NCBI GenBank assembly: GCA_945861925.1
Contig: CAMAWO010000006.1
Span: 1 to 39,657, forward strand
Length of the DNA: 39,657 bases
Reading direction: 5' to 3'
Source: Bifidobacterium breve
GTDB taxonomy: Bacteria; Actinomycetota; Actinomycetes; S36-B12
Position numbers and translations under genes: made by a program
The notes under the pieces: model-generated
The model's input: only the letters and a program-made list of their open reading frames with translations
The model's database searches: none
What the model was told of the DNA's origin: nothing
Shown: one piece after another, positions 746 to 19,003 of the stretch
Layout of the letters: every line of letters starts with the position of its first letter
Position numbering within the stretch: position 1 is the stretch's first letter

Positions 746-2254
746 CTAGATCGTCCGGCGAGCCGCCGCTCCAAGTCTGGCGAGCGTGACATCCTTGCCG
801 AGGATCTCTATCGACTCAAAGAGTGGGGGCGACACCCGCCGCCCGGTCACGGCAACGCGCACGGGGCCGAACGCTACCTTGGGCTTCAGTGCGAGGCCAT
901 CGATGAGCGCTGCGCGAAGCGCCTCCTCGATGCCAGCGGTCGTCCACGCATCAAGACCATCGAGCGCAGCTACCGCGGCATCGATCACCATTGTGGATTC
1001 GGGTGAGAGCACGGCCTGTGCATCAGTGGCGTCCATCTCGAAACGCTCGTTCGGCACCAAGAGAAACGCGAGCATTCCGACCGATTGGCTCAGGGTTTCC
1101 ATCCGCTCCTGAACGAGCGGCACAGCCGCCCGCAGGACAGCCTGGTGGTCCGCTGTCGGCGGGTGGTCGATGACGTGAGCCTCGACGAGGAAGGGCACGA
1201 TTCGGTCGATCAGGTCATCACCGCCTAGGGCGCGGATCCAGTCGCCATTGATGGCCGTGCACTTCTTCAGGTCGAAGCGCGCCGGATTCGGGTTTACCCG
1301 GTTCAACGTGAAGTGCTCGGCCATCTGCTCCTTGCCGAAGAACTCCTGGTCGTCGCCCATCGACCAGCCAAGGAGGGCGAGGTAGTTGAGCAATGCCTCA
1401 GGCAGGTAGCCCTGATCGCGGTACATCTGCAGCGCCGACTCGGGATCGCGCTTCGAGAGCTTTCTGTTGCCCTCCCCCATGACGTAGGGCAGGTGGCCGA
1501 ATCGAGGCGTCGTTCCATCGCTCACCCCAATGGCCGCAAGGGCCTCGTAGAGGGCAATCTGCCGCGGCGTCGACGAGAGCAGGTCCTCGCCACGCAGCAC
1601 GTGCGTGATCCGCATGAGCGCATCGTCGACCGGGTTCACAAGCGTGTAGAGCGGTTCGCCATTACCTCGGACGAGCACATAGTCGGGCACATGTTCCTTG
1701 CCGAAGGTGATCTCGCCCCGGACGAGGTCATCCCAGGTGCAGTCGCGGTCCGGCATCTTGAAACGCAGAACATAGTCGCGGCCCTCGGCGATATAGGCAG
1801 CAGCCTGGGCGTCCGTGAGATCCCGGCACTGCCCGTCGTACCCCGGCGTGCGGCCCTCCGCCTTCGCAAGATCGCGTCGTTCCTCGAGTTCGGACTGGGA
1901 GCAGTAGCACGCGTAGGCATAGCCCGCATCACGCAGTCGCGCAGCGACGTCCGCATAAATATCGAGCCGTTGGGACTGGCGGTACGGCCCGTGAGGACCA
2001 CCCACCTCGGGGCCCTCGTCCCAGGTAAGGCCCAACCAGCGCAGTGCATGGAGGAGGGCGTCATAGGACTCCTCGCTGTCGCGGGCCGAATCGGTGTCCT
2101 CGATGCGGAAGACGAAGGTTCCCTGCATATGACGCGCGAATGCCCAGTTGAACAGCGCAGTGCGAATCATCCCAACGTGCGGGTTGCCAGTGGGCGACGG
2201 GCAGAATCGGACGCGAACCCGTTCGCCTGTGCCGGTTGCCTCAGCCACGGTCAA
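746..2254 (-). CDS. gltX: Glutamyl-tRNA synthetase
   Basis: A cytosolic class Ic aminoacyl-tRNA synthetase that attaches glutamate to tRNA-Glu and, in bacteria without GlnRS, probably also to tRNA-Gln. The HIGH-type signature is [10 protein letters not shown] at residues 19-28 and the KMSKS-type loop reads KLSKRD near residue 270; 502 residues is normal for the family. The frame opens with TTG at 2254; a GTG two codons later (2248) is equally possible. Either start overlaps the end of the preceding FAH gene, implying translational coupling. It is the last gene of the leuB-ilvE-cimA-FAH-gltX run, and both likely tRNA substrates follow immediately. Confidence 0.96.
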
Positions 2255-3032
2255 TCACCGGATTCGTCAACGTCCCCACACCTGCGATCGTCACTGAAAC
2301 CTCATCTCCAGCCCGAATCGGACCCACCCCAGCCGGGGTGCCCGTAAGAATGACATCGCCCGGCAACAGGGTCATCACCGAACTTATCCACGACACCAGT
2401 TCGGCAACATCGAACACCATGTCACCCGTCGAACCATCTTGCCTGACCTCGCCATTCACGTGACAGGTGATTGATGCCGCATCCGTGTCGAGGTCAGTGA
2501 CAATCCAGGGCCCGAGCGGGCAGAACGAGTCGAAGCCCTTAGCCCGGCCCCACTGCCCATCAGATTTCTGGAGGTCGCGGGCGGTCACGTCATTCGCGCA
2601 CGTGTAGCCCAGGACGACCTCGGGAACCCGGTCGACCGGCACATCGCTGCAGAGCCTGCGTATCACGACCGCGAGCTCGGCCTCGTGCTCCACCTGCTCG
2701 GACTGCCACGGCAGCAGGATCGGCTCCCCCGGTCCAATGACCGAGGTGCTCGGCTTAAGGAAGATCATCGGGGACACGGGCACCTCGTTTCCCATTTCCT
2801 TCGCATGAGCCGCGTAATTGCGCCCGACAGCGATGATCTTGCTCGGCAGCACCGGGGCGATGAATCGCACATCTGACGCCTTCATGATGCGCCCCTCAGA
2901 TGCCAGTTCGCCGAACGGGTGACCATCAAGTAGCGCGACGAGCGTGCCCTCGCCGATCTCCCCCGTGTCGGACAACCCCTCGATGAGGCCAAAGAACAGG
3001 TCGCCATCAACGGAAACTCGGCAGATACGCAC
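2241..3032 (-). CDS. Fumarylacetoacetate hydrolase (FAH) family protein
   Basis: A 263-residue FAH-fold enzyme. A short N-terminal domain (about 1-60) precedes the catalytic domain with the [18 protein letters not shown] start, the metal-binding acidic motif [10 protein letters not shown], the DVTARDLQ segment and the C-terminal [12 protein letters not shown] loop. The family includes acylpyruvases, 2-hydroxyhepta-diene-dioate isomerases and oxaloacetate tautomerase/decarboxylase-like enzymes, so the substrate cannot be read from sequence. It starts with GTG 9 bp after the cimA stop (a GGTAGG ribosome site overlaps that stop) and its end overlaps the gltX start. The same association with gltX occurs, as I recall, in Streptomyces. 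A housekeeping 2-oxoacid repair role is possible but unproven. Confidence 0.85.
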
Positions 3033-3041
3033 GAGCGGAGC

Positions 3042-4643
3042 CTACCGACTCGACGCAGTCCCCTCGGACGCCCGAGCATTCCTCAGCAGCCCGAACAGGA
3101 CGGCATCCTCGAGTGCTCGCCATGACGCTGCAATGACATTCTCATGGACGCCCACGGTCGACCATTCGCCCGTGCCATCGGTCGTTCCGACGAGGACGCG
3201 CGTGACCGCTCCAGTCCCCGTCGCGCCCTCGAGGATTCGCACCTTGTAGTCGACCAGCCGCAGTGCCTCGAGCTCCGGGTAGATCTGCATGACCGCAGCG
3301 CGCAGGGCTTTGTCGAGGGCATTGACGGGCCCATTTCCCTCGGCCGTTGAAATGATGCGCTCGCCGCCGGCGAAGACCTTGACTGTGGCCTCGCTCTTCA
3401 CCGCGCCGTCGGGCAACTGCTCGACGATCGTGCGCCAGGACTCCACCTCGAACGCTTTGGTGAGGCCATCCTCCCCCCGCAGCAGAAGCTCGAACGACGC
3501 ATCAGCCGCCTCAAAGGTCCATCCTTGGGACTCAAGTGCCTTCACCTGCTCGACGACCCGGGTGAGGAGCCCGGGGTCCTCTGAGAGGTCGTAGCCCAGC
3601 TCGCGGCCCTTCAGTTCAACGGAGGATCGACCAGCCATTTCGGTGATGAGGACCCGCTGGTTTCCCCCGACGAGTGCCGGGTCAATGTGGTTGTAGAGCT
3701 CGGCATTCACCTTCAGGGCGCTCGCATGGAGACCTGCTTTGTGCGCGAATGACGAGATCCCCGCATATGCCTGGTGAGTATCGGGCGCGATGTTCGTGAT
3801 CTCCGCGATCGCATGCGATACCCGAACAGTCTCCCGTAGATTGCCCTCCGGCAGGCATTCAATGGCGAGCTTGAGTTCGAGATTCGCAACAACTGGGAAC
3901 AGGTCGGCGTTGCCGGTGCGCTCGCCATATCCATTGGCGGTGCACTGGACATGGGTGGCACCGGCCTCAACCGCCGAAATCGTGTTCGCGACCGCGCAGC
4001 CCGTGTCGTTTTGGCAGTGGATCCCGATCCTGACGCCGGAGCGCTCACGGACATCGTTGACCGTCTCATGGATACCGCTCGGAAGCATGCCGCCGTTGGT
4101 ATCGCAGAGGACTCCGACACTGGCACCCGCCTCGAACGCTGCAATCAGCAGGCGGACCCCGTAGTCGGGATCGTGCTTATACCCGTCGAAGAAGTGCTCC
4201 ATGTCGACGAAGACGCGCCGGCCTTCCCCCACGATGAACCGCACTGTGTCACTCACCATCGAGACGTTCTCGTCCAGCGTGGTCTTGAGCGCCTCGAAGA
4301 CATGCCTGACATCGGACTTTGCAACGAGCGTCACCACCGGCGCCAAGGAGTCGAGCAGCGCGCGCACCTGCAGGTCATCCTCCACCTTCACGCCCGCCTT
4401 ACGGGTGGCACCGAATGCCACGAGTTGGGCGTTTCGCAGGGTCAGCTCGGACTGCGCCCTCGCGAAAAACTCAGTGTCCTTCGGCATCGCACCCGGCCAG
4501 CCGCCCTCGATGAATCCGACCCCGTACTCGTCAAGGAGCCGGGCAACGGCGAGCTTGTCATGGACCGAGAACGAGATGCCCTCCCGTTGGGCGCCATCGC
4601 GCAAGGTCGTGTCAAACACGTGAAATCCATCAGGACGACTCAT
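3042..4643 (-). CDS. cimA: (R)-citramalate synthase
   Basis: Condenses acetyl-CoA with pyruvate to citramalate, the first step of the threonine-independent route to 2-oxobutyrate and isoleucine. The 533-residue protein has the DRE-TIM signature FDTTLRDGAQREG near residue 10, an IEGGWPGAMPKD segment typical of the long CimA/NifV-like group, the HCQNDTGCAVAN metal-site region, the GLHASA motif, and a LeuA-type allosteric domain over about the last 130 residues. I chose the ATG at 4643 because GAAAGG lies 6 nt upstream; an in-frame ATG at 4673 overlaps the T-run of a terminator hairpin and lacks a ribosome site. It follows ilvE after an attenuator-like element. LeuA-type homology alone could suggest 2-isopropylmalate synthase, but a separate leuA is present. 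Confidence 0.93.
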   Translation of the reverse strand: MSRPDGFHVFDTTLRDGAQREGISFSVHDKLAVARLLDEYGVGFIEGGWPGAMPKDTEFFARAQSELTLRNAQLVAFGATRKAGVKVEDDLQVRALLDSLAPVVTLVAKSDVRHVFEALKTTLDENVSMVSDTVRFIVGEGRRVFVDMEHFFDGYKHDPDYGVRLLIAAFEAGASVGVLCDTNGGMLPSGIHETVNDVRERSGVRIGIHCQNDTGCAVANTISAVEAGATHVQCTANGYGERTGNADLFPVVANLELKLAIECLPEGNLRETVRVSHAIAEITNIAPDTHQAYAGISSFAHKAGLHASALKVNAELYNHIDPALVGGNQRVLITEMAGRSSVELKGRELGYDLSEDPGLLTRVVEQVKALESQGWTFEAADASFELLLRGEDGLTKAFEVESWRTIVEQLPDGAVKSEATVKVFAGGERIISTAEGNGPVNALDKALRAAVMQIYPELEALRLVDYKVRILEGATGTGAVTRVLVGTTDGTGEWSTVGVHENVIAASWRALEDAVLFGLLRNARASEGTASSR

Positions 4644-4674
4644 GATGCGCCTTTCGTGCGGTGCTCTGCACATG

Positions 4675-4727
4675 AAAAAACCCTCCGCGGATGCGAAGGG
4701 CTGCGCGTCGACCGATGGTCGACGCGC
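4675..4727 (-). promoter_or_regulatory. Attenuator between ilvE and cimA: hairpin plus terminator with T6
   Basis: Reading on the minus strand, a perfect 11-bp hairpin with a 3-nt loop (4727-4703) is followed two bases later by an 8-bp hairpin (4700-4681, stem CCCTTCGC/GCGGAGGG, loop ATCC) and six T residues (4680-4675). The first hairpin begins on the last base of the stop codon of a nine-codon ORF rich in Ile/Leu/Val. This is the layout of a transcription attenuator that senses BCAA-tRNA charging. I do not see a strong alternative antiterminator pairing, so a simple ilvE terminator remains possible. Confidence 0.7.
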
Positions 4728-4756
4728 TAGGAAATAATGACGGTGATGCTCAGCAC
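4727..4756 (-). CDS. Putative BCAA leader peptide upstream of cimA (M-L-S-I-T-V-I-I-S)
   Basis: A nine-codon ORF starts with GTG at 4756 and encodes MLSITVIIS; five of the eight residues after the start are Leu, Ile or Val, with two adjacent ATT codons just before the end. It is in frame with the ilvE stop, only four codons downstream. The AGG that overlaps the ilvE stop region sits 8 nt before the GTG and could be its ribosome site. Ribosomes stalled on the Ile codons would cover the 5' arm of the first hairpin. This is inferred from composition and position only. Confidence 0.55.
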   Translation of the reverse strand: MLSITVIIS

Positions 4757-4765
4757 ACCTGCAAC

Positions 4766-5890
4766 CTAGCAGATGGTGTGCATCCAGTTGTGGGGATCGG
4801 GCGCAGCGCCCGTTTGAACGTCGAGGAGAGCTTGACGAAGCTGCGTCGTCACCGGCCCGGTCAGCCCGCCAGAAATCGACCAGGCGCCGCTCTGCCGAGA
4901 CTTCACATGGCCCACGGGGGTGATGACTGCGGCCGTGCCGCAGGCGAACACCTCAGTGATCTCGCCGCTCGCGCAGCCATCACGCCAATCGCCGACACTG
5001 ATCGGCTCCTCGTCGGCGCGAATGCCGTGATCGATTGCGACGGTGAGGAGTGAATCACGGGTGATACCAGGGAGCAGCGATCCGGTGAGCCTGGGCGTGA
5101 CGAGGCGGGCGGAATCGCCGGACCCCAGCACGAAGTAGAGGTTCATGCCGCCCATCTCCTCGATCCAGGTCCGTTCGACCGCATCGAGCCACACCACCTG
5201 ATCGCAGCCATGCTGCGCGGCCTCGGCCTGCGCGACGAGCGATGCAGCGTAGTTTCCGCCGCATTTTGCCTCACCGGTACCGCCCGGTGCCGCCCGCACA
5301 TAGTCGTCGGAGAGCCACACAGAGACCGGCTTAATCCCGTTGGGGAAATACGCGCCTGCGGGCGAGGCGATGAGGAGGTACTGGTAGGAATTGGCTGGCC
5401 GCACACCTAGACCAATCTCGGTGGAGATCATGAACGGGCGCAGGTAGAGGGATCGCTCATCCTCCCCGGAAACCCACGCAACATCCTGACGGACAAGCGC
5501 CTCGATCGACCCGAGGAACAGTTCTTCCGGGAGTTCTGCCATCGCTAGGCGCCGAGCCGATGACGCGAAACGGGCGGCATTGCGCATCGGACGGAAGGTC
5601 TTGACTGACCCGTCAGCGTGGAGATACGCCTTCAGCCCTTCGAAGATCTCCTGGCCGTAGTGGAGAACACTTGTCGCAGGGTCAAGACTGATGGGCCCGT
5701 AGGGGACGAGCTCGGCGTCGTGCCATCCATGCTCCGCAGTCCACTGCGCGGTGACCATGTGGTCAGTGAAGTAGCGTCCGAATCCAGGGTCCGCGAGGAT
5801 TTCGGCCCGGCGCTCCGCGGTGACCGGCGACGGGCTCTCAGTGATCCCGATCGGCCACATGGCCGTTCCATGCTTTGCCTTCGCGCTCAT
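4766..5890 (-). CDS. ilvE: Branched-chain amino acid aminotransferase
   Basis: A PLP enzyme of fold type IV that interconverts Leu/Ile/Val with their 2-oxo acids using glutamate. The 374-residue length fits the longer, eukaryote-like BCAT group common in Actinobacteria. Seen motifs are [20 protein letters not shown], the PLP-lysine segment [15 protein letters not shown], and [11 protein letters not shown], with a C-terminal [23 protein letters not shown] ribosome site lies just upstream of the ATG at 5890. It follows leuB by 41 bp and precedes the cimA leader region, so leuB-ilvE-cimA may be one transcript with an internal attenuator. Confidence 0.96.
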
Positions 5891-7091: not shown

Positions 7092-7117
7092 ATGAAGCGC
7101 GACCTCCTCCTTCGCTG

Positions 7118-7133
<16 letters not shown>
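7092..7133 (+). CDS. leuA leader peptide (M-K-R-D-L-L-L-R-C-R-G-E-A)
   Basis: A 13-codon ORF, ATG to TAG, with three consecutive Leu codons (CTC CTC CTT at positions 5-7), 106 bp before leuA. Leucine-rich leader ORFs of this kind precede leuA in many Actinobacteria. Its 3' end forms the 5' arm of a hairpin, so stalling at the Leu codons would change the downstream fold. It appears to be translated from a leaderless or nearly leaderless transcript. Confidence 0.8.
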
Positions 7134-18807: not shown

Positions 18808-18874
18808 CCTGTTGTCGCCAATCTCTCGTGTCGGTGATACTTGTTCCAGTCGCTGACGCTTGACCGTCCCAATG

Positions 18875-18942
18875 AAAAACCCCCCGACCCGGCTGGGTAA
18901 CGGAGGGCGGCGCGCCGGTCGACGTGTGTCAGCCCGCGCGCC
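18875..18942 (-). promoter_or_regulatory. ilvB attenuator: leader hairpin plus terminator with T5
   Basis: On the minus strand, GGCGCGC at 18942-18936 (inside the leader ORF) pairs with GCGCGCC at 18915-18909. It is followed by a terminator hairpin: CCCTCCG (18907-18901) pairs with CGGGGGG (18886-18880), with an inner ACCC/GGGT stem and AGCC loop, then TTTTT (18879-18875). This is a standard transcription attenuator layout between the leader ORF and ilvB. Confidence 0.85.
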
Positions 18943-18967
18943 AAATAACTACAAGATTCTTTGCCAC
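18929..18967 (-). CDS. ilvB leader peptide ([12 protein letters not shown])
   Basis: A 12-codon ORF from GTG at 18967 to TGA with the run Leu-Val-Val-Ile (CTT GTA GTT ATT). It covers the 5' arm of the first attenuator hairpin. The GTG lies 7 nt after a good -10 box with no room for a ribosome site, so it is probably read from a leaderless transcript. An in-frame GTG at 18976 overlaps the -10 box and is less likely. Leader peptides rich in Val/Leu/Ile precede ilvBNC in Corynebacterium and Streptomyces. Confidence 0.8.
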
Positions 18968-18974
18968 GCACCAC

Positions 18975-19003
18975 ACAGTAGCGGCACTTCGACTCCCTGT
19001 CAT
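18975..19003 (-). promoter_or_regulatory. ilvB promoter
   Basis: On the minus strand ATGACA (19003-18998; five of six to TTGACA) is separated by 17 bp from TACTGT (18980-18975; four of six to TATAAT). The expected start site is at the GTG of the leader peptide. This is the best-formed promoter I found in the window. Confidence 0.7.

Follow-up and report, generated by a model that had tools for sequence, protein, structure and literature searches.

A predicted isoleucine-responsive attenuator ahead of cimA, conserved across an actinobacterial class

What controls the citramalate synthase gene cimA where a hairpin and a terminator separate it from ilvE, and which amino acid would such a control sense? 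The question is raised by the window analyzed here, the whole 39,657-nucleotide stretch of a contig titled Bifidobacterium breve, in which an original prediction placed a branched-chain amino acid (BCAA) attenuator between the two genes. Our results indicate that the element very probably attenuates transcription of cimA in response to isoleucine; the gene encodes the citramalate entry step into isoleucine synthesis. The isoleucine response, as read from sequence, is strongly supported.

Layout of the interval between ilvE and cimA

All features of the site lie on the minus strand. The upstream gene, ilvE (4766-5890; NF009897/TIGR01123), ends in a TAG codon at 4768-4766 that falls inside the presumed leader promoter, an extended -10 box (TGC-TAGGTT, 4763-4771, identified from its sequence) 6 nt ahead of a leader GTG. 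That GTG, at 4756-4754, is the fourth codon past the ilvE stop and opens the nine-codon ORF, in the same frame as ilvE, that had been predicted. The ORF (4727-4756; codons GTG CTG AGC ATC ACC GTC ATT ATT TCC TAG) is a predicted leaderless leader encoding MLSITVIIS, with ATT ATT as candidate isoleucine control codons on the evidence of its sequence, of conserved codons and positions, and of ATT enrichment. The 11-bp hairpin at the end of the leader is likewise present. Hairpin 1 (regions 1:2; 4703-4727), supported by folding and covariation, is a perfect stem pairing 4727-4717 with 4713-4703 around the loop ATC, and the last G of the leader stop codon (4727) is the first base of the stem. It is abutted, with a gap of 0 nt, by an intrinsic terminator (regions 3:4; 4675-4702), supported by folding, covariation and relatives; as predicted, this carries T6 (4680-4675) and is followed by cimA, and the final two base pairs of its 10-bp stem (4702-4679) draw on the first T's of the T-run. 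The regulated gene, cimA (3042-4643), starts at ATG 4643, about 30 nt beyond the terminator, with a second in-frame ATG at 4673; its product scores 598.3 bits against the equivalog model TIGR00977, for which the cut-off is 450. NCBIfam models confirm cimA, ilvE, leuB, leuA, and ilvB, with ilvE and leuB exceeding the cut-off of their best models.

At -39.0 kcal/mol, the predicted fold of positions 4674-4754 is much more stable than those of dinucleotide-shuffled sequences, at -20.7 (z -6.5, reached by 0 of 200). When both strands of the 39.7-kb window are scanned for a strong perfect hairpin with T4 at most 45 nt downstream, a single place is found, versus 0.05 per shuffled window.

Downstream of cimA, and probably in one operon with it, are genes for a FAH-family hydrolase (2241-3032) and for glutamyl-tRNA synthetase, gltX (746-2254), which together occupy 746-3032 on the same strand and were assigned from Pfam and relatives. 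Among the 71 relatives with enough sequence, the FAH gene follows cimA in 69 and gltX in 68, and the attenuator may therefore also affect glutamyl-tRNA synthetase. A point against the present reading is that ilvA, too, is encoded in the window's own genome, and isoleucine may thus be reached by a route other than cimA.

Conservation across the class and control codons

A CimA search among related actinobacterial genomes, most of them metagenome assemblies, yielded 80 loci, and the chief features of the element stand ahead of cimA in 73 of these. The original prediction had looked to relatives for conserved Ile/Val/Leu codons and hairpins; isoleucine codons and hairpins are conserved there, and so, clearly, is the small ORF, whose lack of conservation would have refuted the prediction. 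The seven loci that lack the element are L051, at a contig end, L062, L066, L071, L072, L075, and L088; in several of them, ilvE and cimA are separated by a mere 50 nt or so. Four of these (L066, L071, L072, and L075) have in common a gap of about 50 nt and, ahead of cimA, a sequence of the GTGGAAACGGAG type, and with the attenuator absent as well, cimA is probably cotranscribed with ilvE there. As a separate matter, five loci (L010, L011, L012, L042, and L072) are titled Bifidobacterium breve, yet their CimA clusters with Nanopelagicales-type actinobacterial assemblies, and the titles look mislabelled; for three of the five, CimA shows 94-96% identity to that of the window.

Covariation was counted in an alignment of 42 sequences. 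Over both helices, 96.5% of alignment cells are paired and 11 of 20 pairs show two-sided changes, a result equalled by 0 of 500 shuffles and far above that of slid controls. For hairpin 1, two-sided changes occur in 7 of 10 aligned pairs, with 95.7% of cells paired. Two side-by-side hairpins are the minimum-energy structure in 159 of 167 cimA loci, and the gap between hairpin 1 and terminator is 0 nt in 132 of 159 relatives.

Of 297 genomes sampled from the actinobacterial class, 205 hold at least one match to a covariance model, R1, at E ≤ 0.01, some of the matches being ilvB copies; cimA was detected in 237 of the 297. When 146 strong matches were fetched and classified, 127 proved to lie ahead of cimA, 16 ahead of ilvB, and three ahead of other genes. 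Other classes of the phylum gave weaker matches, four of the seven inspected sitting before ilvB. Within the window's own genome, R1 at E ≤ 10 hits exactly two places: the cimA site and 18872-18970, before ilvB.

Statistics for the leader peptide were drawn from 167 dereplicated cimA leaders. In the leader frame, 48.5% of the final five codons specify isoleucine, versus about 0.1-0.2% in the other frames. At least two isoleucine codons occur among these five in 155 of the 167 leaders, and in 146 the distance from the start of the last isoleucine codon to the hairpin-adjacent stop position is exactly 6 nt. ATT accounts for 57% of isoleucine codons in leaders but 7.5% in cimA ORFs (Fisher p 2e-79); by this count, the use of ATT in leaders is a marked choice of a rare codon. 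The expectation of a BCAA-type leader was thus right in placing an attenuator-like BCAA leader before cimA but too broad in its specificity, as relatives keep isoleucine codons rather than BCAA codons generally. Copies of the element ahead of ilvB carry Leu/Val at the control positions (ILVLH, RLVV), and two or more isoleucine codons are found in 0 of 11 dereplicated ilvB leaders. Control-codon identity therefore tracks the gene, being Ile in cimA leaders and Leu/Val in ilvB leaders. With end-product codons conserved in frame and position, and with an intrinsic terminator formed by a covarying GC stem and a T-run, the element has the marks of a leader-peptide attenuator. A nascent arrest peptide was also considered and rejected: the leader has 7-10 residues in most copies and is variable outside its isoleucine codons.

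Leader start and mode of switching

In 136 of the 167 leaders, an extended -10 (TGnnAnnnT) lies with its last base 5-8 nt from an ATG or GTG that is in frame, while the other two frames give 0 and 1. Such spacing fits a transcription start that coincides, or nearly coincides, with the start codon, and the cimA leaders accordingly appear to be leaderless; the start site of the leader and its translation are both presumed. Several amino-acid leader peptides of Streptomyces lividans have been measured as leaderless, in a species with the -10 consensus TAnnnT (PMC8079986).

In the proposed switch, the promoter overlapping the ilvE stop would give a transcript beginning at or next to the leader GTG, and 70S ribosomes would translate the nine-codon leader leaderlessly. 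Where charged Ile-tRNA is ample, the ribosome would get to the stop codon at the base of hairpin 1, and RNA polymerase would be halted by the adjoining terminator, some 30 nt short of cimA. Where it is scarce, ribosomes would stall on the rare ATT codons that immediately precede hairpin 1, and a larger share of polymerases would pass the terminator into cimA and probably also into the FAH gene and gltX. The direction of this response is presumed, and so, above all, is the way in which a stalled ribosome would weaken the terminator, as a competing antiterminator was not found. Counting against isoleucine-responsive attenuation is a result for Streptomyces coelicolor ilvB, where, in earlier work as summarised in PMC1262725, replacement of leader codons was without effect on regulation.

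The effect of ribosome position was modeled with an assumed footprint that extends about 12 nt from the A site. Hairpin 1 keeps 97% of its predicted pairing with no ribosome, 57% with a ribosome stalled at isoleucine, and 5% with a ribosome at the stop codon, while the terminator is predicted to form with a mean probability of about 0.94-0.98 throughout. Because the terminator is about equally probable in all three states, equilibrium folding fails to explain the switch, which would depend either on a very short competition, as proposed for Corynebacterium glutamicum ilvBNC, or on the position of the ribosome relative to RNA polymerase. One conceivable form of the latter, which we put forward tentatively and rate as improbable, is a class-wide attenuator free of any antiterminator. 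The abutting hairpin 1 would compact the RNA and hold the isoleucine-stalled ribosome close behind RNA polymerase, where termination would be suppressed sterically or by NusG occupancy; a ribosome at the stop codon would melt hairpin 1 and be released, and termination would follow.

Less probable again is a classical trp-type switch, in which the isoleucine-stalled ribosome would mask region 1 and allow a 2:3 antiterminator to form, blocking the terminator 3:4. Leader, hairpin 1, and terminator are arranged as in classical attenuators, and the tests used could miss an antiterminator that depends on an overlap of only 3 nt, such as that reported for C. glutamicum ilvBNC (PMC11857589). However, when an antiterminator was sought by region pairing in 159 loci, only 1:2 and 3:4 clearly beat partner-swapped or shuffled controls. 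Pairing of regions 2:3, at -3.2 kcal/mol, was weaker than both controls (-3.6 swapped, -4.6 shuffled), and complementarity of 1:3 and of loop 1 with region 3 was no better, and mostly worse, than in the controls. Nor did a hidden antiterminator emerge from these loci among the other pairs (1:3, 1:4, 2:4, loop:4, and others), where the swapped controls of three loop-1 comparisons were unusable owing to invalid energies from very short loops. The terminator persists in 155 of 159 sequences when the 5' arm of hairpin 1 is masked. Under the assumed footprint, moreover, it is the ribosome at the stop codon that abolishes hairpin 1, the isoleucine-stalled ribosome only touching its base. An antiterminator that competes with the terminator was therefore not found, by tests that could miss a competition of 3-4 nt. 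A pairing of the leader with sequence past the terminator, seen in the minimum-energy fold of the window's element, was dropped as a candidate, being no better than with swapped partners across 159 loci (z 0.2).

The original prediction also saw the leader as coupled to the ilvE stop. In such a scheme, ribosomes finishing ilvE would reinitiate at the leader GTG, and the leader would report translation of ilvE mRNA; in this genus the GTG is indeed 9 nt past the ilvE stop and in frame. Outside this genus, that closeness is shared by just a few further members of the family, whereas the leader elsewhere stands alone in a longer gap. In most relatives it lies tens to more than 1000 nt from ilvE, and the constant feature is the extended -10 at its fixed distance. 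Since box spacing is constant while the distance to ilvE varies, the seeming coupling is best read as promoter overlap, and coupling as the basis of control is highly improbable, although reinitiation after ilvE may be an additional input in this genus. We give just as little credence to a plain leuB-ilvE intergenic terminator with an incidental small ORF and a separate promoter for cimA: the terminator does directly follow ilvE in this window, but the mere 30 nt or so from T-run to cimA ATG leaves scant space for such a promoter, and the isoleucine codons, their frame and distance from the hairpin, the -10 spacing, and hairpin 1 are all conserved even where ilvE is not adjacent.

Related leaders and known systems

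The second copy of the element in the window (18872-18980, minus strand), recognized by R1 and by its sequence, precedes ilvB (NF005860). It comprises a -10 box (TACTGT, 18980-18975), a predicted leaderless leader of 12 residues (18967-18929), and a hairpin with terminator; the R1 match, at 18872-18970, scores 24.7 bits with E 0.015. Its leader carries LVVI, as does that of Mycobacterium tuberculosis ilvB1, in which changing the LVVI codons to alanine abolished induction (PMC13236596). On the plus strand, a Leu leader peptide, MKRDLLLRCRGEA followed by a stop, occurs at 7092-7133 before leuA (7240) and resembles S. lividans LeuL1 (MRFGLLLLSCRGEGL and stop). The window would thus hold three distinct BCAA leaders, that of leuA with Leu codons, that of cimA with Ile, and that of ilvB with LVVI.

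Some copies found elsewhere depart from the usual arrangement. Extra copies in two genomes of one family (L238, G106:C6:196633-196725, leader MFTPRIII; L170, G187:C37:283433-283526, leader MFALVIIM) precede a small protein of about 107 aa, the two proteins sharing 53% identity over 79 aa. The L238 protein, when searched, had no Pfam or NCBIfam match; the family is perhaps an ACT-like regulator of isoleucine metabolism. A further copy (L239, G156:C781:6208-6299, leader MQLHLMAIT) precedes a threonine dehydratase-like gene that scores below the ilvA family cut-offs; threonine dehydratase is the other entry to isoleucine synthesis. In part of the class (L079, L082, L084, L134, L180, and similar loci), the leader runs on into hairpin 1, which then contains its stop; the added residues read GRRAG or ARRAG before the stop, or GKRAA.. 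These tails are like the end of S. lividans IlvL (..LGKRVG and stop), which suggests common descent of cimA and ilvB leaders.

The control of cimA has been little studied so far. The element described here is an apparently undescribed attenuator, predicted to respond to a single amino acid, isoleucine, and is conserved in a class with many producers of antibiotics and amino acids; it would show one RNA architecture fitted with gene-matched control codons, Ile for cimA and Leu/Val for ilvB. It also makes testable an old puzzle, that of how actinobacterial BCAA leaders regulate though S. coelicolor leader mutations misfit classical attenuation. On the practical side, isoleucine overproduction can be approached through cimA as an entry point, and the operon probably includes gltX.

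Rfam searches of the window and six relatives gave no relevant match to a T-box or known riboswitch even at permissive thresholds, the weak matches falling far below gathering scores. In their survey of actinobacterial leaders, Seliverstov et al. 2005 (PMC1262725) describe elements for ilvB, leuA, trp, cys, and leuS; cimA is not among the genes of the eight leaders given for the S. lividans transcriptome (PMC8079986); and the Corynebacterium ilvB-II motif is confined to ilvB (PMC10272879). The original prediction knew of no described attenuator for cimA, and none was found in the open-access literature on attenuation of cimA or citramalate synthase, nor in Rfam.

The element shares with the E. 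coli trp attenuator a leader peptide, 1:2 and 3:4 hairpins, and control codons for the pathway product, but lacks the 2:3 antiterminator. The mycobacterial polycysteine leaders (Canestrari 2020, as cited in PMC13236596) are likewise leaderless short ORFs that sense a single amino acid ahead of an operon; they are cited there as acting by translation attenuation, whereas the cimA element conserves an intrinsic terminator with T-run. Closest are the actinobacterial ilvB/ilvBNC attenuators (S. lividans ilvL, MRTRILVLGKRVG and stop; Corynebacterium ilvB-II; the M. tuberculosis ilvB1 uORF), with their short leader of BCAA codons and a last hairpin that is an intrinsic terminator. S. lividans ilvL is leaderless, and in C. 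glutamicum the transcript starts one nucleotide from the leader start codon. The cimA element differs from these in its target, in its isoleucine control codons, in having no detectable antiterminator, in a hairpin 1 that in most copies adjoins the terminator directly and starts inside the stop codon or beside it, and in spanning a class rather than one genus. Its -10-to-start spacing, its tandem hairpins, and the recognition of ilvB copies by R1 agree with membership in the same group, and it appears to be a previously undescribed, class-wide cimA form of the actinobacterial leaderless ilvB-type attenuators.
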